Source: Lentisphaerota bacterium
GTDB taxonomy: Bacteria > Verrucomicrobiota > Kiritimatiellia > RFP12 > JAAYNR01
Direction of reading: 5' to 3'
NCBI GenBank assembly: GCA_016873675.1
Contig: VGWG01000014.1
Coordinates: forward strand, 1-44,167
Length of the DNA stretch: 44,167 nt
Both the position numbers and the translations under genes were made by a program. The notes under the pieces are model-generated. The model searched no databases and was not told where the DNA came from. It saw nothing but the letters and a program-made list of their open reading frames with translations. How positions within the stretch are numbered: the stretch's first letter is position 1; every line of letters begins with the position of its first letter. Positions 2,474-44,167 of this stretch are shown here, piece after piece.

Positions 2474-4009
2474 ATGAACGAATCGGCTATCGGTGATATT
2501 CGTAAGTTTTCCGGCGCCGCGGATTATACGCGCCGGATGATCCGCCCGGAGCAAATCGGGCCCTATCTGAGCGGCGGCACGCACTTCATCGACACTGCGG
2601 CGATCGGATACGCGTTGGCGGCCGCCGCTGCACATCGGAATGACCGCGGACGCGTGCGTGACATTCTGGCCAAGTCGTCGGCCATCGAGACCCTGCTTCC
2701 GGAAGAAACCGCCGTGCTGCTGCATGTGACCGATCCGGATCTGCGGGCCGAGATGGAGGAGACCGCCTTCCGCGTGAAGACCGCGGTTTACGACAACCGG
2801 ATCGTGACCTTCGCGCCGCTCTACATGAGCAACCTCTGCGTCAACCGCTGCGCCTACTGCGGCTTCCAGGCGGGCAACCTCAGCCAGATGCGGCGGACGC
2901 TGAGCATGGACGAGGTGCGCCAGGAGATCGACGTGCTCGCCGGACGCCTCGGACATAAGCGGCTGATCGCGGTCTATGGCGAGCATCCGAACACCTCCAC
3001 CGCGTACATCGCCGAAACCATCCGCACCGTCTATGCGCGGGAGATCAAATCCCGGACCGGGGCCACGCTCGGCATTCGGCGCGTGAACGTGAACGCGGCG
3101 CCGCTGCCGGTTGAGGATCTGCGGGTCCTGAAAGGTGTGGGCATCGGCACCTATCAGGTCTTTCAGGAGACCTACCACCGGCCGACGTATGAGCGGTTGC
3201 ATCCTGCGGGAACGGTGAAGGGGAACTACGACTGGCGCACGACCTGCATGCACCGGGCACTGGAGGCGGGGGTTGACGATGTCGGCCTGGGCGCATTGTT
3301 CGGCCTGTACGACTGGCGCTTCGAGGTTCTGGCACTGGTCTGCCATGCCCGCGATCTGGAGCGGCGGTTCAATATCGGCCCTCACACCATCTCGTTCCCG
3401 CGCCTCGAACCCGCCAGCGGAACCGATGTGCCGACCGAATCGCCGTACCTCGTGAACGACGACGATTTCCAGAAGATTGTCACCGTCACCCGACTGTCGG
3501 TGCCGTACACCGGAATGATCGTGACCTGTCGCGAGTGCAAGACGGTGCGCGACCGCGCCGTGCTCCGAGGGGGAGCCACGCAGATGGATGCCAGCAGCAA
3601 CATTGCAATCGGCGGCTACAGCGAGTTTGCGAGCGAGACTCAGCAGGTGATCGACCGGCAGCAGTTTGTCTTGGCCGACATCCGGACGCTCGACGAGCTG
3701 ATTCGCGACCTGGCGGGGATGGGCATCATCACCTCGTTCTGCACGGCGGGCTACCGGTGCGGCCGCACGGGCGGCTGCATCATGGACGCGCTCAAGACGG
3801 GCAAGGAGGGCAAGTTTTGCAAGATCAACGCCGTGCTCACGTTCCGCGAGTGGTTGGAGGATTTCGCCTCGCCCGAGACGCGCGCGATCTGCGAACCGGT
3901 GCTGCAGCGCGAGCTGCGCGAGGTCGAAACGAACCTGCCCAAGTTCTATCCGTCGTTCAAGGACGCCTACGACCGGATTGTGGCCGGCGAACGCGATCTG
4001 TTTTTCTGA
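2474..4009 (+). CDS. hydG: HydG-like radical SAM protein ([FeFe]-hydrogenase maturase family)
   Basis: 511 residues from the ATG that follows AAGGAAGGGGAA. HydG cleaves tyrosine to make the CO and CN ligands of the [FeFe]-hydrogenase H-cluster. The radical SAM motif is CVNRCAYC (C122, C126, C129) after YMSNL. The body GEHPNTSTAYIAETI and the C-terminal CTAGYRCGRTGG ... GKFC ... LTFREWLEDFAS follow HydG. The C-terminal auxiliary cluster normally uses C-x2-C-x22-C. Here C423 and C449 keep the exact spacing, but the middle position (426) is Gly, with extra cysteines at 429 and 435. No hydE, hydF or hydrogenase gene lies nearby. A ThiH-like role is less likely given the C-terminal region. It converges with the permease gene, leaving only 7 bases between stops. 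Confidence 0.8.
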   Translation: MNESAIGDIRKFSGAADYTRRMIRPEQIGPYLSGGTHFIDTAAIGYALAAAAAHRNDRGRVRDILAKSSAIETLLPEETAVLLHVTDPDLRAEMEETAFRVKTAVYDNRIVTFAPLYMSNLCVNRCAYCGFQAGNLSQMRRTLSMDEVRQEIDVLAGRLGHKRLIAVYGEHPNTSTAYIAETIRTVYAREIKSRTGATLGIRRVNVNAAPLPVEDLRVLKGVGIGTYQVFQETYHRPTYERLHPAGTVKGNYDWRTTCMHRALEAGVDDVGLGALFGLYDWRFEVLALVCHARDLERRFNIGPHTISFPRLEPASGTDVPTESPYLVNDDDFQKIVTVTRLSVPYTGMIVTCRECKTVRDRAVLRGGATQMDASSNIAIGGYSEFASETQQVIDRQQFVLADIRTLDELIRDLAGMGIITSFCTAGYRCGRTGGCIMDALKTGKEGKFCKINAVLTFREWLEDFASPETRAICEPVLQRELREVETNLPKFYPSFKDAYDRIVAGERDLFF

Positions 4010-13521: not shown

Positions 13522-14937
13522 CTAACGGAGTATCCCGGCCTGCGGATCGGCCCTGTGCGTGCGCGGCACACCGACACCCCTGCCGCCGCAGAGGGGATGC
13601 ACGCGCTGTTGAATCGCCTTCCGGTAAAACCGGTTGCCCATGCCGGTGTAGATGACCGGCGTCACCGGGTGCTTCAGGGGCCAGCGCACCACATTCGAAA
13701 AGCGCCGGGCGATATTGCCAACCGAATAAAAGCGGGCGAACGATTCCCAGTAAAGGGCTTCCAATTCAGCGGCATCCATGTTCCGCGGTCTGAAGACGGC
13801 GTGTGTGCCGTCGTAGAAGGAGTAGTCCCGGTGCAGGATGCGCCCCTCCTGATCAAGCTGTGCGTGAAGCTGGGTGCCTGGGATTGGTGTCAGAATAAAC
13901 AGGGTCATCAGATGCACCTTCAGCGCGATGGCGATATCCGTGGTCTCCCGGATGGTCTGTGGCGTGTCGGTATCAAAGCCCACGATCAGGCTGACGTTCA
14001 GGTCGATCCCGGCGGAACGAAAGGCGGCCAGCATCTTGCCGAAATCCTTGCCGACATTGTGCCGCTTGCCCACCGAGTTGAGGCTGTTGGCGTGAAAACT
14101 CTCCACTCCCACGAAGGCGTTGATGCACCCCGACTGCCGGGCGAGATCGAGCAGCTCAGGGTCGGCTGCAGCGAGCGAGCTGAACTGGCCAATCCAGCGG
14201 TTCTTCAGCGGGATCATCGCCCGGAACAGCTCCTTGGCGCGCGTCCGATCGGCGGCGATGTTGTCATCGACCAGAAAGAAATAGGCGCCGGGATAGTGGC
14301 GCATCTCGGCGATCACGTGTTCGATCGGCCGGAAGCGCATCGTGCGGCCGAAATACCGGGTCACGGAACAAAAGGCGCACCCGTGCGGACATCCGCGCGA
14401 GGTCTCGATGGGGATGCGAGGCAGGGCGCTTGTTGAAATGGCGCGACCGGGGCGGACAAACGACGAGGTTCTGAGCAGATCGAAGCGCGGAACGGGAAGG
14501 TGATCCATGGAGCAGAATGCGGGCGCCTGATAGCGGTGCTGCAGGCGGCCTGCGGCGAAGTCGTCCAGGACGCCGCCCCAGACGGTCTCGGCTTCGCCGA
14601 TGACGAGGCTGTCCACATGCGGCAGCACGAGCTCCGGCACAGCGCTCGCGCCGACGCCGCCCATGATCACCTTCACCCCGCGTGACCGGAAGCAATCGGC
14701 GATCTGGATCGCCCGTGGCACCTGCGAAATGAGCGTTGTGATGCCAACGAGATCCACCTGCGCATCGTAGTCGATCGCATCGATGCTGTCATCCGTGATG
14801 ACGGTGTCGAAGTTTTCCGGCGTCAAGGCGGCCAGGTAGGGGAGGGCACGCGTCGGGGTGAGTGCTTTTTCAAGTTTACGGGGCTCGCCGTTCACCAGTT
14901 CGGCGGGCTTGATCAACTGCAGTCTGTAGGATTTCAT
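13522..14937 (-). CDS. B12-binding-domain radical SAM protein, substrate unknown
   Basis: 471 residues. An N-terminal Rossmann-like cobalamin-type domain (about 40-135: VGITTLISQVPRAIQIAD, VIMGGVGASAVPELV, VIGEAETVW) precedes a radical SAM core with SRGCPHGCAFCSV (C183, C187, C190). The core continues with FLVDDNI, FVGVESF and LIVGFDTDTPQTI, as in the large methylthiotransferase/methylase class (HpnJ, BchE, oxygen-independent cyclases). No DxHxxG cobalamin-ligand motif is visible in the N-terminal domain, so cobalamin binding may be base-on-free or lost. The C-terminus is basic and cysteine-poor. It stands alone between the EF-G-like gene upstream region and a divergent methyltransferase gene; GGGAGA lies 10 bases before the ATG. 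Confidence 0.85.
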   Translation of the reverse strand: MKSYRLQLIKPAELVNGEPRKLEKALTPTRALPYLAALTPENFDTVITDDSIDAIDYDAQVDLVGITTLISQVPRAIQIADCFRSRGVKVIMGGVGASAVPELVLPHVDSLVIGEAETVWGGVLDDFAAGRLQHRYQAPAFCSMDHLPVPRFDLLRTSSFVRPGRAISTSALPRIPIETSRGCPHGCAFCSVTRYFGRTMRFRPIEHVIAEMRHYPGAYFFLVDDNIAADRTRAKELFRAMIPLKNRWIGQFSSLAAADPELLDLARQSGCINAFVGVESFHANSLNSVGKRHNVGKDFGKMLAAFRSAGIDLNVSLIVGFDTDTPQTIRETTDIAIALKVHLMTLFILTPIPGTQLHAQLDQEGRILHRDYSFYDGTHAVFRPRNMDAAELEALYWESFARFYSVGNIARRFSNVVRWPLKHPVTPVIYTGMGNRFYRKAIQQRVHPLCGGRGVGVPRTHRADPQAGILR

Positions 14938-15066
14938 CGGCTTTGATTCTCCCGAGCGCGCGTCCAGTGGGTCGCCTCAGAATAGACCATGTGTTTCAAA
15001 CCTTAGCAGAAGGGGTTGGATGCGTCAAGATGCGGATACCCGTGATCCATCCTGACAGAAGATCGT

Positions 15067-18776: not shown

Positions 18777-20033
18777 ATGAGGAATGTCTATTCCAATGAT
18801 GATCGGCGTGCTGTTGTCACCGGAATCGGAGTGGTGGCGGCCAATGGCATCGGCGTCGACGCATTCTGGCAAACACTCATCGATGGACAATCAGGGGTCG
18901 GCCCCATCACATTGTTCGATGCCTCTGCCTTGCCCATTCGTATCGCGGCTGAGGTGAAGGGGTTTGACCCTGACATCCATTTACCGACGGGTATTAAGTG
19001 GAAGCGTATTCCACGACAAGCGCATTTTGCTTTGGCGGCTTTGGACATGGCGTTGGCAGACGCCGGACTAAGTGCTGGAAGTCTGACGAAGTCCAGGCGT
19101 CAGGTGAACGTGTTCATTGGGGTCAGCACAAGTGCAATCGAGGTGGTCGAAGGGGCGGCGCACAATGTGTACAAGGGAAGTCCGAACCACGTGCGCCCCT
19201 GGGTGGTTTGGGCCACACAACCCCATTGCGTCGCCACGACATTGGCGGAATATATTGGCACACAAGTTTCGTACCAGACCGTGGCGGCAGCGTGCAAAGC
19301 CGGATCGGATGCGGTCTTGGACGCAGCCGAGGCGATTCGCACGGGGCGAACAGACATTGCGATCGCCGGCGGCACGGATGCGTCGATTTGCGCGACCACC
19401 TGTGCCGCGTTCTGCACGAGCAAGATGCTCTCCTGTCGCAACGGGGATCCCCAGCGCGCCAGCCGGCCTTTTGATCGTGATCGTGACGGGGGTGTGTTAG
19501 GGGAGGGGTCAGGCATCCTGGTGCTGGAGAGTTTGGCCCACGCACGTGCCCGTGGCGCACGGATGAGGCTGGAGATCTGCGGCGGGGCATCGTATGCCGA
19601 CGCGTTCGGCACGCCAGCGGCTGAAGGTCTGGGGGTGTGCATGTCTCTGGCCATGGCCAATGCGCGGATCGATAGCGGGGCGATTGATTACGTCTGTGCG
19701 CACGGGCCGAGCGATATCGGGATTGATCGCGTGGAAACAGCCATGATCCGCAACGTGCTGGGATCCCGCGCCTATCGCATTCCGGTTTCATCCATCAAGG
19801 GCGTCACCGGCAACCCGCTGGCGTCGGCCGGTCCGCTGGAGATCATTGCCTGCGCGCTGGCGATGCGCGACAATCGGGTCCCGCCGACGGCGAATTACAC
19901 GACGCCCGACCCGGCCTGCGATCTCGACTACGTGCCCCAGGCGCGGCGGATGCGGATTGAACACGCGCTGATCAACGTCCACGGCATGGGCGGTGGCAAC
20001 ACCACGCTCGTGGTGCGGAGGCCGCCGCCATGA
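18777..20033 (+). CDS. beta-ketoacyl synthase (FabF/KAS II-like) with altered catalytic triad
   Basis: 418 residues with the thiolase fold of KAS I/II. The nucleophile C173 sits in TVAAACKAGSDA and H309 in CAHGPSDIGID. K341 lies in SSIKGVTGNPLASAG. The second catalytic histidine of FabF (MTGH, five residues after the Lys) is Asn346, and the C-terminal loop GFGGHN is GMGGGN. A Cys-His-Asn set is typical of KAS III, not of FabF. The enzyme may condense or transfer an acyl group, but ordinary malonyl-ACP chemistry is uncertain. The ATG at 18,777 gives the usual MxxRRAVVTGIGVV opening, though its ribosome-binding site is weak. The stop overlaps the kinase ATG (ATGA), so the enzyme is part of a signalling operon. 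Confidence 0.88.
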   Translation: MRNVYSNDDRRAVVTGIGVVAANGIGVDAFWQTLIDGQSGVGPITLFDASALPIRIAAEVKGFDPDIHLPTGIKWKRIPRQAHFALAALDMALADAGLSAGSLTKSRRQVNVFIGVSTSAIEVVEGAAHNVYKGSPNHVRPWVVWATQPHCVATTLAEYIGTQVSYQTVAAACKAGSDAVLDAAEAIRTGRTDIAIAGGTDASICATTCAAFCTSKMLSCRNGDPQRASRPFDRDRDGGVLGEGSGILVLESLAHARARGARMRLEICGGASYADAFGTPAAEGLGVCMSLAMANARIDSGAIDYVCAHGPSDIGIDRVETAMIRNVLGSRAYRIPVSSIKGVTGNPLASAGPLEIIACALAMRDNRVPPTANYTTPDPACDLDYVPQARRMRIEHALINVHGMGGGNTTLVVRRPPP

Positions 20034-22561
20034 CGAACCTGTTCATCATCGGGCTCCCTGTTGTGATCACGATCAACCTGCTGCTCGGCATGATCGTGTT
20101 TCTGACGAATATGGGCCGGCTGGCCAACCGCGTTTTCGTCCTTCTCTCTTTGGTGTTCGCCCTCTGGCTGGCCTGTCAGTACTTTGGGTCGATAGCAGTG
20201 AGCGAGGCGTGGCTGGAGTTTTGGATCCGCCAGGCCTGCGCCACCAGCGTGTTGATCCCCTTGTTATTCCATCTGCTGCGGGCTGCCGCTGTGCAGCCCT
20301 CGACGACGCTCGCCAGCCTGCTGCGCCGTGCGTGGCCGTGGGCGGCGGCGGTGGTTGGCGCCGCCGTTCTGTCTCAGACCCGCTTCTTCCTGGTTGGCGC
20401 CCGTTTGTCGATCGGAGGGAACGCGATCGGAGAGCCGCTCTACGGGCCGGGGTTCACCCTGTTTGTCGCCTTCTGGCTGGTCGCCGTGGTGGCTTTGGTC
20501 TGGAGTTTCTTCCGGGCGCTGGCTCGGGCGGAAGGCGTCTACCGGATGGAAATGCAGATCATGGCGTATGGATCGCTGTTCTCGTTTGTTCCTGGCGTCG
20601 TCCTGGTGCTGCTGATCCCCCTGTTCACCGAATCGTCGCAAAGTGCGCGATTCACGCCCATCACGGTGGTTATCTGGCACAGCGCGATGGCCTACGGAAT
20701 CGCCACCCGCCACATCATGGGCGTGGGCGAATTCTTGCGGCGCGGGATTATCTGGTCGCTGGTGGCGTGTGCCTTGGCGATCATGTATTACGCGGTGTTC
20801 CGCCTGGTCATGCGACTTCCCTCTTATGGAGCCGATGAGTTGCAGCATCACATGGCCCATGTGTGCGCCGGCATCGTCATCGCGCTGAGTCTCGCGCCGG
20901 CGAATGCGTTTCTTCGGAGCCGGGCCGATTATCTGTTCGAGAAAGACCACGATGCGTTGTCCCAACTGGTTCGCAGGGGGGGCGATCTGGCCCGCTCCAT
21001 TACCACGGTTGACGCGCTGTGCACCGATTTCAGCCGGTTGCTGCAGCACGCGCTCGGCGTCTCCCGGATGCAGGTGTACCTCCAGGACGGTTCGCGCTTC
21101 GTGCCGCATCCGGTCCCGGGAGAGGAAGCGGCGGAGCCTGTCGGGGAGGCCGATCCGCTGGTGCAGGCCTTGCGGGCGGAGCGTTACCCCTTGATCCGCG
21201 ACGTGTTACGGCGCGGCGGCAACACGCCACTGGAGGTGCGGGCCGAACGCGTGCTGGCCCGGCTGGACGTCGAGGTGGCGGTCGCGCTCAAATCCAAGAA
21301 CGGCCTGGCGGGCTTTCTTCTCCTTGGCCGTCGTGCGAACGGCCGGGTTTTCGGCCAGCGCGAAGAGGATGCGCTGGCGTTTCTCGGGGATCAGTTGGGT
21401 TTTGCGATCGAGAACGCCACGCTCTATACGCGGCTCCAGGACGCGCGCCTCTACAACGAGGTGCTGCTCGACAATCTGGTGACCGGCGTCGTCGCCGTCG
21501 GCGCCGACGGGCATGTCACCGTCTGCAACCGCGAGGCGCAACGCATCCTGCGCCTAGCCCCGGACGGGGAGGTCATCGGCAGATCCGCCGCTGACGTTCT
21601 GCCCGAGCCGGTCTGGAACGATTTGCGCGCCTGCCTTTTTTTGGGCCGGGGTGTGCGCGATCAGGATATGCGGCTGTATCCGCAGTCGCCCCGCGAGCAG
21701 GCGGTTCGTCTCTCCACCGCCGTTTTCGGCGGCAACGCCGGAGCCTCGACGGGCGCGCTGCTGGTCATTCAGGACACCTCCGCCATTCGGAAGCTGGAGG
21801 AGCAGATCCGGCGCAGCGACCGGCTGGCGAGCATCGGAACGATGGCGGCCGGCATGGCTCACGAGATCAAAAATCCGCTCGTCGGCCTCAAGACGTTCAT
21901 CCAACTCCTGCCTGACCATTACGAGGATCCGGATTTCCGCAACACCTTCGTGCCGCTGCTCGGCAACGAGGTCGAACGAATCAACGCGATCGTCTCGCAG
22001 CTCCTCAATTTCTCCCGGCCGGTCAAGCCGACGTTGAATCCGCTCGCACTCCACGCCACGCTCGATGCCGCACGCACGCTGGTCGCGCAGCAGATCAAGG
22101 CGCGCGGACTGGTCTTCGAACGCCACTATGAAGCGGAGAACGACCGTCTGCTGGGCGATCAGGGGCTGCTGAGTCAGTTGTTCATCAATTTGTTCTTAAA
22201 TGGCATGGACGCGATGGAGCCCGGCGGCACGCTGACGGTGACCACACAGGCCGTCAGAAGGCCCGATCCGCGTTGGGCTCACGCCGGGACACCGGCGGAA
22301 GCGTGGATCGAGGTGCGGGTGCAGGACACCGGCCGCGGCATTTCGCCGGAGGACAAGCCGCAGATTTTTGATCCGTTCTTCACGACCAAGGCCACCGGTA
22401 CCGGTCTGGGTCTGTCGGTCGCCCACGGAATCGTGATCGAACACCGGGGCATGATCGACGTGGAGAGCATTCCTGGTGCGGGCGCCTGCTTCCGCGTGCT
22501 GCTGCCCCTGCTTGCCGGTGGAGACCCCATCGGCGATACTGAATCGAAAGGAGAGGCATGA
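20030..22561 (+). CDS. membrane sensor histidine kinase (multi-TM, GAF, PAS, HisKA, HATPase)
   Basis: 843 residues. About eight hydrophobic segments fill residues 1-300, then a GAF-like domain (about 325-475), a PAS-like domain (about 480-595), HisKA with H611 in MAAGMAHEIKNPL, and an NtrB-like ATPase with NLFLNGMDAM, DTGRGIS and TGTGLGLS. The multi-pass N-terminus, with no large periplasmic domain, suggests sensing of a membrane-soluble signal, as in CqsS- or PrsK-like kinases; the resemblance is architectural only. Both ends overlap neighbouring genes by ATGA. The HisKA segment closely resembles that of the next kinase (LVGLKTFIQLLPDHY against LVAISTFAQLLPDRY), pointing to duplication. The likely partner is the sigma-54 regulator two genes on. 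Confidence 0.92.
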   Translation: MTNLFIIGLPVVITINLLLGMIVFLTNMGRLANRVFVLLSLVFALWLACQYFGSIAVSEAWLEFWIRQACATSVLIPLLFHLLRAAAVQPSTTLASLLRRAWPWAAAVVGAAVLSQTRFFLVGARLSIGGNAIGEPLYGPGFTLFVAFWLVAVVALVWSFFRALARAEGVYRMEMQIMAYGSLFSFVPGVVLVLLIPLFTESSQSARFTPITVVIWHSAMAYGIATRHIMGVGEFLRRGIIWSLVACALAIMYYAVFRLVMRLPSYGADELQHHMAHVCAGIVIALSLAPANAFLRSRADYLFEKDHDALSQLVRRGGDLARSITTVDALCTDFSRLLQHALGVSRMQVYLQDGSRFVPHPVPGEEAAEPVGEADPLVQALRAERYPLIRDVLRRGGNTPLEVRAERVLARLDVEVAVALKSKNGLAGFLLLGRRANGRVFGQREEDALAFLGDQLGFAIENATLYTRLQDARLYNEVLLDNLVTGVVAVGADGHVTVCNREAQRILRLAPDGEVIGRSAADVLPEPVWNDLRACLFLGRGVRDQDMRLYPQSPREQAVRLSTAVFGGNAGASTGALLVIQDTSAIRKLEEQIRRSDRLASIGTMAAGMAHEIKNPLVGLKTFIQLLPDHYEDPDFRNTFVPLLGNEVERINAIVSQLLNFSRPVKPTLNPLALHATLDAARTLVAQQIKARGLVFERHYEAENDRLLGDQGLLSQLFINLFLNGMDAMEPGGTLTVTTQAVRRPDPRWAHAGTPAEAWIEVRVQDTGRGISPEDKPQIFDPFFTTKATGTGLGLSVAHGIVIEHRGMIDVESIPGAGACFRVLLPLLAGGDPIGDTESKGEA

Positions 22562-24564
22562 CAACACCCGCCCCCGTGTGCTTGCTGCTCACGCTCGCCC
22601 CGGATCTGGCCGATCGCCTCGCTCGATCCGCCGGCGGATTGGCCGATATTCTCGCCGTGTCGGACCGTTCCGAGCTGGCGCGCGCGGAACAGCGGCTCGG
22701 TCCGACGGTGCGGGTGCTCGATCTGAGGCACCCCGATACTGAGGCGGTGCTTGCTGCCGCCTCTGCGGAATCACGCGGATGCATGATCGCCATCGGCCTG
22801 CCCGAGTCCGAGGCTTTCCTGGCCGGTCGCGATGCCGACCTCTTTGCCGTGGAGCCGCTCGACGTCCCCGCAGCCCAGTTCCGGAGAACCGTGCGCCACG
22901 CCATCCTCCTGCATCAGGCCCGCGAGGATCTGGCCCTGGAGCGGCGCCCGCGCGCCGCCCGTGCGCCGGATCCGCATCCGGCCGCCGCCGAACCGACGAT
23001 CAACCTCGCGCCGCTCCATGAATTGTGGCGCGCCTCGCGCCATTTCCGCGATCCTCAGAAGCTGCTGGAACAATTGGCCGAAGGCATTGCCGCCGTCGGC
23101 CGATTCGCCCGGGTGGGCGTTGTGGTCCGGCTCGACGAAGACTCGTCCTATCGGCTGCGGGCGGGCATCCGCTGCCCGGATGGATCCGACACGCTTGTGT
23201 TGGATCCCGCAGATCCGCTGGTGCGATGGCTGGATCGTCAGGCGCATCTGGTCTGCCGTGCCAACCTCGACCATGTCGCCGACCTGCGCGACCAGCAGAT
23301 GCTGCGGCGAGCGCTGGACAGCGCCGGCGCGGAGGTGATTGTGCCGCTGATCGGCAAGCGGGGGCTGCTGGGCTGGATCGCGGTCGGCCACCGCGCCACC
23401 GGCATCCCGTTTGCGTCACACGATCTCTCAGATCTGGCCGTCATCGGCGAGCAGGTCGCCACCCTGCTTGAAAACGCGTTGCTGGTCGAGGAACTGGCCG
23501 TCCAGAAAACGCTGGCCGAAAACCTGCTGGAAGCTCTTCCCGTGGGCATTCTGGCCGTTGCCGGGGACGGAACGGTGCGCTGGTTCAACCGTGAGGCGGA
23601 GCACCTGCTGGGCGTGACCGCTGCGGAAACGGTCAACCGCCCCGTGGAGCAATCGGGCAGCCGCATCGCGGATCTGGCCCTGCGGACGATCCGGAACGGC
23701 TCAGACGTTGCCCCCGCTATTTGGACGGATACCGCAAGCCGGCGCACCCTGCGGGCCGTCGTCCAGCGCATCGGGGCGAATGACGCGTGCTGGGGCGCCA
23801 TGCTACTGCTGACGGACATCACCCGCGAGCGTCTGCTGCGCGAGAAGCAGGAGGAGATGGAGCGTCATGCCTTCTGGAACGACCTCGCTGCGGCCATGTC
23901 GCATGAGGTCCGCAACCCGCTCGTGGCCATCAGCACCTTCGCGCAGCTCCTCCCGGACCGCTACGCCGACCCCGAATTCCGCCAGCAGTTCTTCAGCATC
24001 GTGACCGGTGAAGTCGGCCGGCTGAATGCCATCATCACCCAGATCAACACATTCGCCCATCCGCCGCAGCCGGTCTTCCGCAAAATCGCGCCAGGCGAGA
24101 TTGCGACGCGCGCCTGCGCGCTTGCCGCGCAGCGAGCCGCTCCCGGAACATTCGACGGAGTCCGGGAGATTGAGGCGGGACTGCCGTTGATAGACGCCGA
24201 CGCCGAGGCGCTGATCGACGGCCTCGCCCACGTGCTGGTCAATGCGCACGAGGCGGTCGTCGGACTCGCCTCGCCCCGCATCGTCCTGCAGGTCCGCTGC
24301 AGCGGCGTCGGCCCGGCCCAGACCTTAATCTTCGCCGTGTCCGACAACGGACCTGGCGTCGCTGTGGAGGTTCGGGACAAGCTCTTCTCCCCGTTCTGCA
24401 CGACCAAGCCGCGCGGGCTGGGGCTGGGTCTGCCGCTCGCGCGGCGGACGGTCGTCGACCACGGTGGACGGATCGACGTGGATACCAACGAGAACGGAAC
24501 CACTGTGACGATTACCCTGCCGCTGGAGGGACGCATCAGCTATGCTGAAACTTCTGATCGTTGA
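22558..24564 (+). CDS. soluble histidine kinase with degenerate receiver, GAF and PAS domains
   Basis: 668 residues, no membrane segment. Residues 1-120 look like a receiver fold (VCLLLTLAP, VRVLDLRHP, CMIAIGLPES, LFAVEPLDV) that has lost the acidic pair and the conserved Lys-Pro (here Glu-Pro), so it probably cannot be phosphorylated normally. A GAF-like domain (about 150-310), a PAS-like domain (about 320-430), HisKA with H449 in AAAMSHEVRNPLV, and an ATPase with LAHVLVNAHEA, DNGPGV and GLGLGLPLARR follow. It overlaps the membrane kinase gene by four bases and the regulator gene by 23. It is a paralogue of the membrane kinase and probably acts on the same regulator. Confidence 0.92.
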   Translation: MTTPAPVCLLLTLAPDLADRLARSAGGLADILAVSDRSELARAEQRLGPTVRVLDLRHPDTEAVLAAASAESRGCMIAIGLPESEAFLAGRDADLFAVEPLDVPAAQFRRTVRHAILLHQAREDLALERRPRAARAPDPHPAAAEPTINLAPLHELWRASRHFRDPQKLLEQLAEGIAAVGRFARVGVVVRLDEDSSYRLRAGIRCPDGSDTLVLDPADPLVRWLDRQAHLVCRANLDHVADLRDQQMLRRALDSAGAEVIVPLIGKRGLLGWIAVGHRATGIPFASHDLSDLAVIGEQVATLLENALLVEELAVQKTLAENLLEALPVGILAVAGDGTVRWFNREAEHLLGVTAAETVNRPVEQSGSRIADLALRTIRNGSDVAPAIWTDTASRRTLRAVVQRIGANDACWGAMLLLTDITRERLLREKQEEMERHAFWNDLAAAMSHEVRNPLVAISTFAQLLPDRYADPEFRQQFFSIVTGEVGRLNAIITQINTFAHPPQPVFRKIAPGEIATRACALAAQRAAPGTFDGVREIEAGLPLIDADAEALIDGLAHVLVNAHEAVVGLASPRIVLQVRCSGVGPAQTLIFAVSDNGPGVAVEVRDKLFSPFCTTKPRGLGLGLPLARRTVVDHGGRIDVDTNENGTTVTITLPLEGRISYAETSDR

Positions 24565-25936
24565 CGACGAACGGGGAAGCCGCGAAGCGCTTCGGCTGAT
24601 CTTTGCGCGCGACTATGCCGTGTTGTCGGCCTCCACGGCGGAAGAGGCGCAGGCGGTCTTGTCGGGCGAACACGTCGATCTGGTGCTGCTGGATGTCGTG
24701 ATGCCCGGACGTTCCGGGCTCGATTTCTTGCGCCAGATACTCGCCGACCATCCCGAGATGCCGGTCATCATGGTCAGCGCCTCGACCGCCATCCCGCCCG
24801 TCGTCGAGGCCATCCGCCAGGGAGCCGTTGACTTCGTCGGCAAGCCCTTCGACGTGGCGAACATCCGCCATGTGGTGCGGCGGGCGATCGAAACCAAACG
24901 GCTGCACCGCCGGGTCGCCGTATTGGAGACCGAACTGTCGGCCGCCTTTCCGACCCAGGAGATCATCGGCCGAAGCCCCGCCTTCGCCGCGGCCATTGAG
25001 CATGTGCGGCAGGCGGCTGTCACCGACGCCACAGTGCTGATCCAGGGGGAGAGCGGGACGGGCAAGGAACTCGCCGCCCGCCTGCTGCACGCGCAGAGCC
25101 CCCGCCGGGACGAACCGTTCGTTGCCGTCCATTGCGCGGCCCTTCCCGAAAACCTCCTGGAGAGCGAGCTATTCGGACACGAGAAGGGGGCGTTCACCGG
25201 CGCAGACCGTCAGAAGCAGGGCCGGTTCGACCTGGCCGGTTCAGGGACGCTGTTTTTTGACGAGATCGGTGAGATGACGATCGCCACGCAGGTGAAGCTG
25301 CTTCGCGTGCTGCAGGAACGGGAATTCATGCGTGTCGGCGGAACCCGGCTGCTCCGCACCAACGCCCGCATCGTGGCGGCCTCGGCACGCGACTTGAGGC
25401 GGGAGACCGCTGCGGGACGTTTTCGGGAAGACCTCTTCTACCGCTTCAACGTGGTTCAGGTGCGACTGCCGCCGCTTCGCGAGCGGCGCGATGACATTCC
25501 GCTGCTGCTCGCGCATTTTATGGCCCGGCTTGGCCCCGCCCTGCATGCCGAAACCCGCGGGTTCGATGCGGAGGCCCTGAGCCGGCTGTGCGCCTATGAC
25601 TGGCCCGGAAATGTGCGCGAGTTGCGCAACGTCGTCGAACGGGTATTGGTCCTCCACAGCCGCGAGCCGGAGATCGCCGTGCGGCATCTGCCTGAGGAGT
25701 TCCACGCCGGATGGCCGCAATCGGCGCCCGCTGCGGACACGGCCGCCGTCCCCGGTGCCGCGCCGCCGGACGCTGGCGGGCTGAAACTCGAAGAGGCTGT
25801 CAGCGCCTGCGAGCGCCGGATCATCTCAGAGGCCCTGCGTCGGGCCGACGGCGTTCAAACGCGCGCCGCCGAAAGCCTCGGCACCACCCGCCGCATCCTC
25901 CGCTATAAAATGGCCAAACTTGGCCTCGCCGGATAG
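24542..25936 (+). CDS. sigma-54-dependent response regulator, NtrC family
   Basis: 464 residues. The receiver has D8/D9, phospho-acceptor D51 in LLDVVMPG and K101. A linker leads to an AAA+ domain with Walker A GESGTGKE (169-176), the sigma-54 contact loop GAFTGA (216-221) and Walker B GTLFFDE (about 235-241), plus the arginine-finger region [13 protein letters not shown] Fis-type helix-turn-helix ends the protein (about 425-464: [31 protein letters not shown]). It should bind enhancer sites and activate sigma-54 RNA polymerase when phosphorylated by the kinases encoded just upstream. A sigma-54 promoter and a distal palindrome upstream of the divergent fadL-type gene are its obvious candidate targets. 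Confidence 0.95.
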
Positions 25937-25941
25937 AGGGC

Positions 25942-26703
25942 CTATTCTGCGTCAAGCGCGTCGGAGATCGCGTCCGGAACGTCCATGTTGGTGAACACGT
26001 CTTGGATATCGTCGAGATCTTCGAGGGCGGCAATGAACTTGTTGACGGATCGGGCGATAGCGATGTCGTTGACCGCAGTCAGCGCCACGGGGACGAGTCC
26101 GACGCGCGAATTTTCCTGATCAAACGCGATGCCCGCCTTTTCCAGCGCTTCGCACACGGCGGAGTAGGAGGACGGCTGGCAGGTGACGGTGTACCCGCCC
26201 TCTTCGGTGACCATGTCATCGGCACCCGCGCCGAGGGCGACCTCCATGACCTGATCCTCCGAGACCCCTTGGGAGGGAATCATGATCGTGCCTTTGCGCT
26301 CGAAGTTGCGCGAGACCGAACCGAGGGTGGCAAAGTCGGAGTTGTTCTTCTTGAAGACGTTGCGCACTTCCGCGGCAGCGCGGTTCTTGTTGTCGGTGAG
26401 CACCTTGACGACGAGTCCGACGCCGCCGCCGGCGTACCCTTCGTAGGTGATCTCTTCGAGAACGTCGGCCGCAAGCTCGCCAGTGCCCTTCTTGATCGCC
26501 CGCTCAATGTTGTCATTGGGCATGTTGACAGACTTGCCTTTGGCGATCAGCGTGCGGAGGGTCGGATTATTGCCGGGGTCGCCGCCGCCCTGCTTGGCGA
26601 CAACCGTCATTTCCTTGGCGAGCTTGCTGAAGATCTTGCCGCGCTTGGCATCCGCCGCGCCCTTTTTGTGCTTGATGGTTGCCCATTTACTATGACCGCT
26701 CAT
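25942..26703 (-). CDS. yebC: YebC/TACO1 family protein
   Basis: 253 residues, full length. The start MSGHSKWATIKHKKGAADA and the segment MPNDNIERAIKKGTGE are near-consensus for the YebC/PmpR family, which has been described both as DNA-binding regulators and as ribosome-associated factors helping translation of difficult (proline-rich) sequences. Three domains are expected: the N-terminal helical part, TYEGYAGGGVGLVVKVLTDNKNR, and the C-terminal ferredoxin-like part. GGGGAGA precedes the ATG. It converges with the regulator gene, with five bases between stops, and is unlikely to belong to the signalling module. Confidence 0.95.
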   Translation of the reverse strand: MSGHSKWATIKHKKGAADAKRGKIFSKLAKEMTVVAKQGGGDPGNNPTLRTLIAKGKSVNMPNDNIERAIKKGTGELAADVLEEITYEGYAGGGVGLVVKVLTDNKNRAAAEVRNVFKKNNSDFATLGSVSRNFERKGTIMIPSQGVSEDQVMEVALGAGADDMVTEEGGYTVTCQPSSYSAVCEALEKAGIAFDQENSRVGLVPVALTAVNDIAIARSVNKFIAALEDLDDIQDVFTNMDVPDAISDALDAE

Positions 26704-26775: not shown

Positions 26776-27798
26776 TCACCGTCCCACCGCCCCTGCGCCG
26801 GCAGGCATGTCGCATCCCAGCAGATCGGCAGGAGCCTCGGCCCCGTACTCCTGCACCCATCCATTCTCAAAGCCCAGTTTCTCAAACGCATCGGTCACGC
26901 GCCCGTATTCTCTGGCGGTGACCGTTCGGTCCCATCCGAGTCGACCGAGCGCGTGATGCGTCGGCGTGTACTGCGACATCACGCTGATGTGGATGTCCAC
27001 ACCCACATGCGCCGCCAGCCAGTGCAAATTGTCAACCGCCTCGTCGGCGCGCCCAGGTAGCACCAACAAGCGGCAAATGACGCCTCGTCGCGCTGTGCCC
27101 GCCGCATCCACCTCCAGCGGCCCGAGATGGTCCCAAAACCACTGGACACACGCCCGCGCGACCTCGACATACGTGTCGCATGCGGAAGCCTCTCGGGCCG
27201 TCTCGTTGCGCGCATAGCGCAAGTCGACCAGCGCGATATCGAGGAGGTCGGCATAGGCCGACAACGTCTCCGGCAGCTCAAAACCGGATGTATTATAGAC
27301 AAACGGCAGACGAATGCCAGCCTGAATTAACGGACGTGCCGCCTCGCGTATCCACGGGAGCCAGGGCGTAGGCGAGACGAGGTTCCAGTTGTGGCACCCC
27401 TGCTCGGCGATCGAGCGCATCCGGGCGGTCAAGCCGGCCACCTCCAGGTCCTCTCCAAGCCCCCCCTGGCTCCAGGGGTGGTTCTGGCAGTAGATGCAGC
27501 GCAGGGTGCAATGCGAGAAGAAGAGTGTGCCCGAGCCTCGCGTGCCGGAAATCGGCGGCTCCTCGCCAAAATGCGGCCCGTAACGGAACAGCCTGGGCAC
27601 GGCACCCGCCCGGCAGAAGCCCGTCTCCCCGGCGAGCCGGTTCACCCCGCACCGGCGCGGACAGAGTGCGCACGCCGCCGCTGCGGCGTCAGGTGCGGAT
27701 TCCCCGTGAGCGGTCGAACCCCCAGAGTCATGAATGGTTGTCATTCTGTTCATCGCGGCGCACGCTTTGTCTGATTCGTCGAAAGGGGTGTGATTCAT
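26776..27798 (-). CDS. radical SAM protein, PflX/pyruvate formate-lyase activase-like
   Basis: 340 residues. CTLRCIYCQN (C97, C101, C104) is the radical SAM cluster site. An N-terminal CALCPRRCGVNR ... GFC (C43, C46, C50, C62) matches the extra Cys set of COG1313 (PflX) proteins, and DIALVDLRYA with HISVMSQYTP lies in the core. The substrate is not known for this family; activation of a glycyl-radical enzyme or another modification is possible. The ATG overlaps the stop of the upstream hydrolase gene (ATGA), so this gene ends the rhamnosidase/sugar-transporter operon. In-frame ATGs at 27,753 and 27,744 are alternatives, as none has a clear Shine-Dalgarno. Confidence 0.85.
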   Translation of the reverse strand: MNHTPFDESDKACAAMNRMTTIHDSGGSTAHGESAPDAAAAACALCPRRCGVNRLAGETGFCRAGAVPRLFRYGPHFGEEPPISGTRGSGTLFFSHCTLRCIYCQNHPWSQGGLGEDLEVAGLTARMRSIAEQGCHNWNLVSPTPWLPWIREAARPLIQAGIRLPFVYNTSGFELPETLSAYADLLDIALVDLRYARNETAREASACDTYVEVARACVQWFWDHLGPLEVDAAGTARRGVICRLLVLPGRADEAVDNLHWLAAHVGVDIHISVMSQYTPTHHALGRLGWDRTVTAREYGRVTDAFEKLGFENGWVQEYGAEAPADLLGCDMPAGAGAVGR

Positions 27799-30782
27799 TT
27801 TGGGTTCATCACGCTCACGCTCATCAAACCAATGACGACTTCCTGGGAGAGCGTTTCCAGCGTGACGTCTTTCACGTCCACATCGGGGCGCAGCTTGTGG
27901 CCATAGACCATGGCCCGGCAGTTCTCGCCGAGTTGGACGTGCGGGGGCGGCGTCTTGGGCAAGGCGAAGCCGTCCCGCTTGTAATCATAATCTACGCGGC
28001 CGAACCCGCAGAGCGACCAGAAATTCAGCGGCGGCACGAGTTCGAGTGTCTCTTCCTGGCCGTCGGTGTACCGGAAGCGCAGCACGGCGTTGACAATCCT
28101 GCCCTGCATCGGATTGGTCGAACCACAGACGAGCAGCCACAATGCGTCGCCGCGCGCATTCACCGGTACCATCACGGATTTTGGCCAGTTGTCCCAGAGC
28201 GACGTGAAGGCGATGTTCTTCTCCGCGCCGATCGTGCCGAACGGTACGCCTTGCGGCGTCGTGACCGGCTCGCCGGGCTTGGCGAGTTTGACTTTCGGTG
28301 TCGCAATCTTCCACGGCGTGAACGTCCACGCCCGCCAGCCGTCGTACCCGATCCGCATCGAACAGGTGTTCGGGCGCGGCGACCGGTATTCCTGCTGGAA
28401 GATCGTCCGCACATCGCCGTTAAAGCACCCGGAGATGTCGAGCGTCTTCCACGTCGCGCCAGCCGGGACGATCATGGGTTCGATCACGGGCGCGACGGCG
28501 CGGACTTTGGTGACGTGATAACGCGGCACGTCGCCAGCGACGGTCTCAAGCACCAAACCGGGCGTACTTCCGGTCTTCTCGGCGACCGGGAGCGAAACCA
28601 TCGGGCCGTCTGTTTCGATGACGACATCGGCTGTGCTGCACGCCGGCACGTCCACGAACAACGCGCCGTAACCGGCCCACGGTTCGAGGCGATACGTGGC
28701 GGACTGTCCGTTGACGAGCACCTGTTTCACTTTCGCCGCGCGCACGGGCAACCGAAACTTCATCGCGGCCGGTTTGGTGAGCGTGACCTGATACCGGTTT
28801 TGCCGGTAGGACAACGTAAAATCGGGGGTGCGGATCGAGGCGTGATCCCATGCGGACGGAAACGCCGGCTCGATGCGGACAATGGCGTTCGGGTAGTCGG
28901 GCCGGTAACCGAACAGACCCTCGACCACGGCGCGGGCGAACTGTGTGGTGATATCGTTGAAATCAATGCCGCAGTTCGGGTGGCTCAGTCCGCCGGGCGA
29001 ACGGATATTGATCCGGCCGCTGACACCAGCCTCGTTGCTGAAGCCGCTGCGCGGCGACGGGTCGCCGTACATCGATTGCAGCATCGTGCCGCGCAGGAGG
29101 TCCCAGCCGGTGTCACCGATGCCGCCGAGAAAATAGCCGAGGGCCATCGCGAAGTTGTCGCCGTGGTACAACTCGCGGATGGACCACTGGCCGGGCACGA
29201 AGTTGGATGTTTGCCGCATCTCGCCGCCGAACGGGAACAGAAACCGCTCCATCGCCCACTCGGTGTAGTCCATCGCGCGCCACGCCTGTTCGGGCGTCGT
29301 CATCCCGGCTTCGATGGGGACGTGCTGGGCGTAGATCCAGGCGTCCTCGTGGACGCGCTGGTGCCCGCCCTGTTCGATGTGCGAGGCAAAATGACCTTTG
29401 TCCTTCAACCAGAGCACCCGGTTCAGCGCGGTGTGAATCGTGTCCGCCTGGGCGGTGTATTTTTTCGCAGCGGTGTTGTTGCCGGCGCGTTGCTGCATCT
29501 CGGCGGCGGCCCGGAAGCCATAATACATATAGGCCGACTGGTCGCTCGTGCCGCCGCCATTGAACCAGATCGAGTCATTCGGCCAGGTGTTGTTGTAGCT
29601 CTCGTAGAGGCCGTCGCCGTCCGGATCGTAGCATTCGCGGCAGCGTTGCAGATGGAGTTCGAGCATCGGCAGCAGCCGTTTTTCGAACGCCGGGTCCGCC
29701 GTCGCGCGCCAGGCGCGGACGGCTTCGTCAAAGAACTGCGTCTGAAACTCGTAATGAGGCACCATCGGGTAATTGAGAAAGCCCGTCCCGAAGAACCGCG
29801 AATTGCCCGACTGCTGGCAGCCGTTGGCGGAATACTCCGGCTGGGTCTTCTTGTCGTCGCGTTTGACCTGTTTCGAATCCCAGTGCGCCAGCGCCGTGGC
29901 CACGAGATCGTGCCAGCCGTAGTTGATCGCGCCGCCCATGGTCCGCCAGCCGGGAATCGGGTAGCGCCACATGGAGCCGCCATGCACGAAACACGGCTCG
30001 ACAAACAAGCCCAGCACCGCCGCACTCGACGCCGCGACACCCGCATCGAAATACGGGTCGGGCGTTTCGACCACGACGCGTCTGCCGACCGCCACGACGC
30101 GCGCCAAGCCGTCGGCGAATTCCGTGGCTGGCTCGCCCAGCTTCTCGCCGTCCGCCACGACCGCGATGAATTGCGGCTTGTCCGACAACGCCGTCCAGAA
30201 AACGATCCCATTGCCGGCGCCGGTCCTGGTCAAGTGATTGCGGTTCTCGAACGCGAGGCGTTCCTGGTTCTGGACCGGATCGGAGAGTCGGATTCCTTTG
30301 ACCGGTTCACCCTTGCCATCCCGCCCGAACACGCACCACGCCGCCCCGTCACCGGGTTGTGATCCTTCGACAATGAGGCGGGCCGTGAATCCGTTTGCAT
30401 CGGCGAGCGTCGTGCCGGTGAGCCGCACCGTCATTCCGGGGAACCGGGAATCCGACAACTCCCACTCCATCCGCCCCGCCCGGTACCGCGCGACCCGCTC
30501 GGCGAAATGATGAAGCCACACGCGCGTCTCACCGCGTTGGATTCCGAAGAACGCCATCCCCATCGGCCCGTTGAGCGACGGCATCTCGCCAGCCAGCACG
30601 ACCGCCATCCGGCGGTTGCAGTACAGCGGACGGTTATTCCAGACATCGCCGTTGCGCACGACGATAGCGTCCCCCTCGGGGTGATAGACAAGCCCCGGCA
30701 ACGGCTCGACAGCGCCACCCGGGCTCTTCGTCGCCAGCAACAACGCCGTCACGGCGACCAGCGGGAGATGACGATTCGTCAT
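27795..30782 (-). CDS. secreted (alpha/alpha)6-barrel glycoside hydrolase-like protein (DUF4450 type)
   Basis: 995 residues. A short signal peptide (about 1-24, LPLVAVTALLLATKSPGGA) precedes an N-terminal beta-sandwich resembling DUF4450 (about 30-260: VRNGDVWNNRPLYCNRRMAVVLAGEMPSLNGPMG). A central helical-barrel region follows (about 280-650), rich in aromatic and acidic motifs (YDPDGDGLYESYNNTWPNDS, HEDAWIYAQHVPIEAGM), then C-terminal beta domains. The barrel suggests cleavage of a plant- or algal-type oligosaccharide, possibly rhamnose-containing given the operon; the exact linkage is unknown. The ATG comes two bases after the stop of the binding-protein gene and GGAGG lies 13 bases upstream. 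Its stop overlaps the radical SAM gene. Confidence 0.75.
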   Translation of the reverse strand: MTNRHLPLVAVTALLLATKSPGGAVEPLPGLVYHPEGDAIVVRNGDVWNNRPLYCNRRMAVVLAGEMPSLNGPMGMAFFGIQRGETRVWLHHFAERVARYRAGRMEWELSDSRFPGMTVRLTGTTLADANGFTARLIVEGSQPGDGAAWCVFGRDGKGEPVKGIRLSDPVQNQERLAFENRNHLTRTGAGNGIVFWTALSDKPQFIAVVADGEKLGEPATEFADGLARVVAVGRRVVVETPDPYFDAGVAASSAAVLGLFVEPCFVHGGSMWRYPIPGWRTMGGAINYGWHDLVATALAHWDSKQVKRDDKKTQPEYSANGCQQSGNSRFFGTGFLNYPMVPHYEFQTQFFDEAVRAWRATADPAFEKRLLPMLELHLQRCRECYDPDGDGLYESYNNTWPNDSIWFNGGGTSDQSAYMYYGFRAAAEMQQRAGNNTAAKKYTAQADTIHTALNRVLWLKDKGHFASHIEQGGHQRVHEDAWIYAQHVPIEAGMTTPEQAWRAMDYTEWAMERFLFPFGGEMRQTSNFVPGQWSIRELYHGDNFAMALGYFLGGIGDTGWDLLRGTMLQSMYGDPSPRSGFSNEAGVSGRINIRSPGGLSHPNCGIDFNDITTQFARAVVEGLFGYRPDYPNAIVRIEPAFPSAWDHASIRTPDFTLSYRQNRYQVTLTKPAAMKFRLPVRAAKVKQVLVNGQSATYRLEPWAGYGALFVDVPACSTADVVIETDGPMVSLPVAEKTGSTPGLVLETVAGDVPRYHVTKVRAVAPVIEPMIVPAGATWKTLDISGCFNGDVRTIFQQEYRSPRPNTCSMRIGYDGWRAWTFTPWKIATPKVKLAKPGEPVTTPQGVPFGTIGAEKNIAFTSLWDNWPKSVMVPVNARGDALWLLVCGSTNPMQGRIVNAVLRFRYTDGQEETLELVPPLNFWSLCGFGRVDYDYKRDGFALPKTPPPHVQLGENCRAMVYGHKLRPDVDVKDVTLETLSQEVVIGLMSVSVMNPK

Positions 30783-43053: not shown

Positions 43054-44167
43054 TCAGAACCCCCTGTCGGTGCTCCAGTCCTTGCACAACACCTCGGCTT
43101 GTTCGAGAACCAGTTCCGTCGCTCGCGCCTGCATGTCCGGTGGATAGCCGTACTTGCGCAGCACCCGTTTGACGAGGACACGAATGTGAGCCCGGGCATT
43201 CTCCCGCACTTGCCAATCAATGGTAACGCTCTGCTTCACCCGGTCGACCAGTTCCTGGGCAAGGAAGCGGAGCTTTTCATCGCCGATGACCTGCTTGGCG
43301 CTCGCGTTCTCGGCCAGCGCGTCGTAGAAGGCTACTTCATCATCCGACAGCCCCATCTTTTGCCCGCGAGACTCGGCCAACCGCATCTCCTTGGCGATGC
43401 GGATCAGTTCGTCAATGACCTGAGCGGCCTCCAAGGCACGGTTCTGGTACTTACGGACCGCCTGTTCCAGCATCTCCGCAAACGAACGGGCCTGCACCAC
43501 ATTCTTGCGCATCCGCGTCTTGATCTCGTCGTTGATCAGCTTCTTCAACAGTTCGAGAGCAAGGTTGCGCTGCGGCAATCGCCGGACGTCCGCCAGGAAC
43601 TCGTCTGACAGAATGGAAATGTCCGGCTTCTCCAGCCCGGCGGCCGCAAAGATGTCCACCACCTCGGTCGAGTAGACGGCCCGCGAAACAAGCTGCCGGA
43701 TGGCCGACTCCATGTCGTCCGGCGATTTCTCGCTCTCGGACATCGTCACCTTGATCAGTGCCGAGCGAATCTCCTGAAACAGACCGATCTCGTCTCGGAC
43801 AGCCATCGCTCGCGGATTCGGCACCGCCAGTGCGAATGCCCTGGAAAGGTCGCCGACAGCGTGGACAAAGCGCGTCTTACCCTCATCCATGCTGAGCACG
43901 AACTCCATCGCCTGTGCCACGCCGCTCATGCGTTGCGCGGGGGCAGCCTTCAGGATGGCCGTGTAGTCGAAGCCGTGCAGCAGATCGCACACGACCTCGT
44001 ACTTCTCAGCCATGACTGCCGCCGCCTGTTCCTGGTCAACGGTAGCCTGCCCCTTGCCGCCGCTGGCGGTGTAGGTGTGCAGCGCGTGCTTGAGGGCGTC
44101 GGCGATCCCGAGGTAGTCCACCACAAGGCCGCCCGGCTTGTCTTTGAACACGCGGTTCACCCGCGCG
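43054..44167 (-). CDS. hsdR: type I restriction enzyme R subunit (HsdR), C-terminal part, 5' end beyond window
   Basis: The open frame continues to the right edge, so only the last 371 or so residues are seen. It opens within helicase motif VI (ARVNRVFKDKPGGLVVDYLGIA), the exact context of type I restriction motors. It then continues into the all-helical DUF3387/EcoEI-like C-terminal domain (LTLE-rich helices, RMRKNVVQARSFAEMLEQAV, LSDDEVAFYDALAEN, WQVRENARAHIRVLVKRVLRKYGYPP), which docks HsdR on the methyltransferase. The nuclease and helicase cores and hsdM/hsdS would lie beyond the window. It converges on the fn3 remnant. Confidence 0.92.
   Translation of the reverse strand, partial: ARVNRVFKDKPGGLVVDYLGIADALKHALHTYTASGGKGQATVDQEQAAAVMAEKYEVVCDLLHGFDYTAILKAAPAQRMSGVAQAMEFVLSMDEGKTRFVHAVGDLSRAFALAVPNPRAMAVRDEIGLFQEIRSALIKVTMSESEKSPDDMESAIRQLVSRAVYSTEVVDIFAAAGLEKPDISILSDEFLADVRRLPQRNLALELLKKLINDEIKTRMRKNVVQARSFAEMLEQAVRKYQNRALEAAQVIDELIRIAKEMRLAESRGQKMGLSDDEVAFYDALAENASAKQVIGDEKLRFLAQELVDRVKQSVTIDWQVRENARAHIRVLVKRVLRKYGYPPDMQARATELVLEQAEVLCKDWSTDRGF

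Follow-up and report, generated by a model that had tools for sequence, protein, structure and literature searches.

The window, by which we mean the whole 44,167-nucleotide stretch of DNA analysed, carries a hydG gene that probably encodes a working HydG, a tyrosine lyase with a part in assembling the metal centre of [FeFe] hydrogenases, in which the second ligand of the auxiliary cluster has moved from position 426 to position 429. In such an enzyme, C423, C429, and C449 would bind the cluster. We infer both the ligation by C429 and an unchanged product. The ligand shift appears to be widely conserved and to belong to an ordinary maturation enzyme, rather than to mark a loss of function. The relevant features of the gene are as follows.

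2474–4009, plus strand: hydG, with a C-x5-C-x19-C variant in the C-terminal cluster domain; 511 residues (TIGR03955, AlphaFold, 4wcx_A).
2837–2860, plus strand: radical SAM cluster motif C122-x3-C126-x2-C129 (codons; invariant in 79 aligned HydGs).
3383–3385, plus strand: H304, an invariant histidine (codon; invariant in 79 aligned HydGs).
3740–3742, plus strand: C423 (TGC), first of the auxiliary-cluster cysteines (conserved in all 79 aligned HydGs).
3749–3751, plus strand: G426 (GGC), at the position of the second cysteine of canonical HydG (codon and 4WCX alignment).
3758–3760, plus strand: C429 (TGC), proposed replacement ligand (in 140 of 145 HydGs without C426, in 0 of 77 with C426).
3776–3778, plus strand: C435 (TGC), a lineage-specific cysteine and an unlikely general ligand (Cys in 90 of 140 shifted HydGs).
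3818–3820, plus strand: C449 (TGC), final cysteine of the motif, at the canonical +26 from C423 (all 278 loci have a cysteine there).

By alignment numbering, H304 corresponds to His265 of Thermoanaerobacter italicus HydG, which we take to be the protein ligand of the dangler iron. Like C423 and C449, it is invariant across the 79 aligned sequences.

The reading frame at 2474–4009 (+) translates into 511 residues with zero internal stops. The HydG profile TIGR03955 matches the protein with 434.1 bits (cut-off 312.15), aligning residues 36–510 with profile positions 9–469 of 470. The ThiH profile TIGR02351 gives 228.3 bits, under its cut-off of 380, and the protein therefore falls outside the ThiH family. 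The AlphaFold model (79 sequences) has a pLDDT of 94.5 and superimposes on 4wcx_A with a Z score of 53.8 and an rmsd of 1.2 Å over 453 aligned residues (chain length 454). The superposition covers model residues 32–511, the C-terminal domain included, indicating that the C-terminal cluster domain of the HydG fold is present in the predicted model.

The auxiliary-cluster stretch of the window protein is SFCTAGYRCGRTGGCIMDALKTGKEGKFCKINA, with cysteines at 423, 429, 435, and 449 and glycine at 426. The sequence-only reading had assigned these residues correctly, down to the codon. In the aligned stretch of T. italicus HydG (4WCX), CTACYRMGRTGDRF, G426 is opposite a cysteine, C429 opposite a methionine, and C435 opposite an arginine. 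The window protein does not match the canonical C-x2-C-x22-C pattern because of the glycine at 426; it matches C-x5-C-x19-C through C423, C429, and C449. The predicted model has a short helix at 425–428, so residues 426 and 429 would be about one turn apart and may face the same way. By this geometry, C429 could plausibly reach the same cluster.

One argument for the shift is that C426 and C429 exclude each other. We collected 278 HydG loci, fragments and repeat fetches included; among the matches listed, 188 are shifted, 80 are canonical, 10 have neither cysteine (five genes, each fetched twice), and 0 have both. Removal of 28 loci that are not full length and of 28 identical copies leaves 222 distinct full-length HydGs. 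Among these matches, C426 is present in 77, mostly from the phylum search (its best-scoring 30 loci plus 40 hand-picked from lower scores), and C429 is present in 0 of the 77. C426 is absent in the other 145 of the 222, and 140 of these have C429. With one or few origins of the shift, as considered below, such counts reflect long conservation and not many independent events. The last cysteine is at +26 in 278 of 278 loci among the matches listed. With C429 nearly always replacing C426 and C449 at +26, the motif is therefore C-x5-C-x19-C instead of C-x2-C-x22-C. A search for CT[ASGC]CYRCGRTG, which would have both cysteines together, finds none in 288 genomes of the phylum, indicating that there are no intermediates among them.

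Shifted loci in named genomes were obtained by a scan for CT[AS]-not Cys-YR-any-GRTG with position 429 left free. The scan yields at least 118 loci, of which 117 have a HydG frame and one (L203) does not. Position 426 of the 140 shifted HydGs is Gly in 135, Asp in 4, and Ala in 1 among the matches listed, the scan having required a 426 codon that does not start with T, which excludes Cys, Ser (TCN), Phe, Tyr, Trp, and some Leu.

In known HydG, the radical SAM cluster is the site of tyrosine cleavage, and the dangler iron receives CO and cyanide (PMC6212873 and PMC11736057). The window enzyme would follow the same course. Tyrosine would be cleaved at the radical SAM cluster bound by C122, C126, and C129, and CO and cyanide would pass to the dangler iron of the auxiliary cluster. 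The auxiliary [4Fe-4S] cluster would be held by C423, C429, and C449, with one iron left free as usual. The Fe(CO)2(CN)(Cys) unit would then be built on the labile dangler iron, for HydE and HydF.

A different arrangement, which we consider unlikely, is that the cluster is oriented otherwise in the shifted clade. C429, together with C435 in the window's lineage, would leave a different iron free, the dangler or the release of Fe(CO)2CN to HydE would differ, and the side branch lacking both cysteines would maybe serve another cofactor. If true, this arrangement would be a second natural route to the H-cluster synthon, across many phyla.

The sequence-only reading had left two explanations side by side: a shifted cysteine serves as ligand, or the enzyme cannot build the dangler-iron cluster and makes a different product. 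The exchange described above fits the first best. The second, under which a tyrosine lyase would set free CO and cyanide as such or make some other product, seems highly improbable. G426 does take away a ligand of the most cited motif, and the C-terminal cluster of HydG is reported as essential by mutation in PMC9431212. However, the gene is the genome's sole HydG above cut-off, alongside two [FeFe] hydrogenases; shifted genes have hyd neighbourhoods in many phyla; and C429 is near-invariant. With hyd neighbours in many phyla, and with hydrogenases and maturases in the window's own genome, the proposed loss of the cluster finds no support.

The genome-scale evidence is as follows. The sequence-only reading had noted that no hydE, hydF, or hydrogenase gene is near. 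This holds for the 44-kb window, in which HydE queries match HydG alone. It does not hold for the genome, in which HydE, HydF, and two hydrogenases are present on other contigs, and an absence of hydrogenase is thus rejected. HydE scores 358 bits (cut-off 255). HydF (L082, G000:C12, 547–2046) scores 316.7 bits on TIGR03918, just under the cut-off of 325.55, and its C-x-H...HC-x2-C motif is intact. The two [FeFe] hydrogenases belong to group A6, score 869 and 790 bits (cut-off 765), and have the H-cluster motifs. One HydG is above the family cut-off; the second HydG-like match is a ThiH with 409 bits (cut-off 380).

Some further observations concern the same genome. The HydF of many relatives scores 450–590 bits, and that of the window's genome is ~65% identical to the HydF of Syntrophales (L126) and Auribacterota (L127); replacement of this HydF by transfer is possible, judging from the sequences. 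Within the window, 13525–14976 (−) encodes a radical SAM protein that includes a B12-binding domain and weakly matches DUF4070, and 26779–27984 (−) encodes a further radical SAM protein with a match under Pfam's cut-off. An HsdR-like type I restriction protein, of which the contig end leaves the C-terminal part, is encoded at 43057–44166 (−).

Shifted hydG genes also lie beside hydrogenase genes. In a genome of the same order (G008), hydE (19133–20182), shifted hydG (20194–21666), hydF (21786–22970), and hydA (25120–25974) are on one strand within 7 kb. In the 117 named loci among the matches listed, each of 8 kb or less, at least one of hydE, hydF, and hydA is near in 61 (hydE in 44, hydF in 40, hydA in 22, all three in 8). 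Zero hyd genes are found within 8 kb or less in 53 of 112 shifted loci among the matches listed. In the order, a shifted HydG is verified in 47 genomes; of these, the hydrogenase domain PF02906 is present in 45, HydE over cut-off in 38, HydF over cut-off in 40, and all three in 30; missing partners may partly come from gaps in draft genomes. Elsewhere, 24 genomes were hand-chosen from the scan loci, among them the five holding a gene that lacks both cysteines; PF02906 is present in 23, the miss being a Thermodesulfobacterium geofontis MAG. Homologues that share the glycine are therefore found in hydrogenase-positive organisms at the genome level, as the gene content indicates.

In addition to C429, the window protein has C435, and two explanations invoke it. 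The first, that C429 and C435 are both ligands in a four-cysteine site of the window's lineage, giving a tighter cluster or a free iron that is capped in some states, is in our judgement quite unlikely. Both cysteines are present in 29 of 29 close relatives, and among the matches listed residue 435 is Cys in 90 of the 140 distinct shifted HydGs. However, it is K, T, H, Y, R, S, or N in the other 50, some of them inside hyd clusters (for example, L183), and all-cysteine ligation would leave no iron for the dangler. The second, that C435 rather than C429 is the replacement ligand, is very improbable. C435 is present in the window protein and its order, but those 50 of the 140 shifted HydGs lack it; of the 145 HydGs without C426, 140 have C429. 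Therefore, C435 is a lineage feature and is rejected as a general ligand. Finally, a sequencing or assembly error at 3749–3751, for which one may point to the window being one contig of a 218-contig draft genome and which the sequence-only reading had allowed for, can hardly be the explanation, as the same glycine, in a 13-residue stretch CTAGYRCGRTGGC that is identical letter for letter, occurs in 29 of 29 relatives' loci inspected first (L006–L034), and the glycine also occurs in the cultured Desulfosarcina widdelii, Sphaerochaeta halotolerans, and Peptoclostridium litorale.

The shift of the cysteine from 426 to 429 is widely distributed. The shifted motif is verified in 47 genomes of the window's order and the canonical motif in 14. 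In other genomes of the order, CTAGYRCGRTG is separated from the next C by a single G, K, or S. The canonical 14 comprise ten genomes of family f4 (CTSCYRLGRTGEHFM) and G031, G036, G048, and G053 (CTACYRAGRTGDRFM). Listed holders of the shifted motif include members of Kiritimatiellae, Lentisphaerae, Omnitrophota, Elusimicrobia, Planctomycetota, Spirochaetes, and Bacteroidia, as well as D. widdelii, S. halotolerans, P. litorale, T. geofontis, and an Archaeoglobaceae MAG. The shifted HydG is the sole HydG above cut-off in D. widdelii and S. halotolerans; P. litorale has one shifted and one canonical HydG.

Two canonical cases of the order deserve a remark. The loci L070 and L071 (G036 and G053, genus g6) have a canonical HydG together with a HydE of 533–536 bits; other members of the genus have a shifted HydG and a HydE of ~315–325 bits. 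In G036 and G053, it looks like both maturases were replaced together.

The history of the shift was approached with an 83-row tree, composed of 79 of 83 representatives below 72% identity (L107, L179, L190, and L205 omitted by hand), to which three extra rows and a ThiH outgroup were added. The window protein clusters with HydG from a Kiritimatiellae record, which makes an uncultured member of Kiritimatiellae the most likely source of the window. When the motif columns are left out and the 61 C426-less rows are held as one clade, the likelihood is 12.5 units above that of the free search, with a p-AU of 0.694. One clade is thus not rejected, and the shift is compatible with a single origin as far as these alignments tell. 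Several independent origins, suggested by the two sequence backgrounds IM..KLNAVLTFREWL and FM..MPNAILTFKEYL, were considered and rejected, as the tree unites both backgrounds in one clade, with a tentative place for L211 (Halanaerobiales). With the ThiH outgroup, the canonical rows fall outside the C426-less clade, which points to the canonical motif as the older state, although the root is unsure because the ThiH branch is very long.

A few HydGs have neither C426 nor C429. L162 (3688–5166, +, in G111) has CTAGYRIGRTG and adjoins hydE; L171 (5488–7095, +, in G102) has CTAGYRAGRTG and adjoins hydA and hydE. No second HydG was found in either genome. With hyd genes beside them, these two copies indicate that C429 is not strictly needed everywhere, unless they are inactive. 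If L162 and L171 are active, two cysteines together with some other ligand would be enough.

The remaining three, L112 (4602–6098, −), L123 (2601–4352, +), and L148 (4285–5778, −), are paralogs without C426 and C429 that have CTAGYR(E/Q)GRTG. They are second copies in Planctomycetes and Lentisphaerae MAGs that also hold a canonical HydG, and their loci of 8 kb or less hold no hyd neighbour. L112 and L123 lie near genes for Nitro_FeMo-Co (NifX-like) proteins and for MinD-type ATPases that carry ferredoxin inserts, whereas the vicinity of L148 has DUF5320, a sigma-54 regulator, and C_GCAxxG_C_C. The motif lacking both cysteines is rare: of 77 genomes in the order of G108, G108 alone has it. Proteins of the L112, L123, and L148 type are possibly HydGs turned to another cofactor. 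A further second copy, the divergent HydG-like L305 (G124:C2:222414–224127), has CTSCYRHGRNG and a short stretch before the motif; its host, G124, also has a high-scoring canonical HydG.

C-x2-C-x22-C is the HydG signature in use, and searches by motif alone would miss a large and widespread group of HydGs. PMC9431212 reports HydG by known motifs in just three of eight acetogens. Such annotations would be corrected if C-x5-C-x19-C were recognised as the same site. Moreover, a putative natural ligand swap on the dangler-iron cluster offers a clean test of how the cluster is held and of what the chemistry requires of the site. In open-licence literature, we found no report of the wide distribution, of the mutually exclusive exchange of C426 and C429, or of the one-clade result, and an earlier mention of the motif elsewhere is possible.

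The C-x5-C-x19-C motif itself is already in print. In PMC9431212 (2022), the C-x(5)-C-x(19)-C motif of Clostridium autoethanogenum HydG (CLAU_RS03260) is ‘supposed to coordinate the C-terminal Fe-S cluster’, and HydG motifs are said to vary, with reference to Duffus 2012. The motif came from a motif search in acetogen genomes, and the passages on it give neither a tree, nor a distribution, nor a test of it. By the reported motif, its spacing is identical to that of the window protein. The window gene thus adds a member to a variant that has hardly been described.

The window protein resembles the HydGs of T. italicus (4WCX) and Carboxydothermus hydrogenoformans (4RTB) in the whole fold (Z scores of 53.8 and 42.0, respectively), the radical SAM motif, the first and last auxiliary cysteines, and the conserved histidine. 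It differs from them in the auxiliary-cluster motif: both carry CTACYR (C-x2-C-x22-C), and neither has a cysteine at 429 or 435. The canonical HydGs of the same order (family f4, genus g5; G031, G036, G048, and G053) are full-length, are 45–51% identical to the window protein, and carry the canonical stretches CTSCYRLGRTGEHFM or CTACYRAGRTGDRFM. ThiH (2-iminoacetate synthase) shares the radical SAM tyrosine lyase core (Z score of 41.7) but lacks the long C-terminal domain, and its alignment extends just to model residue 436.
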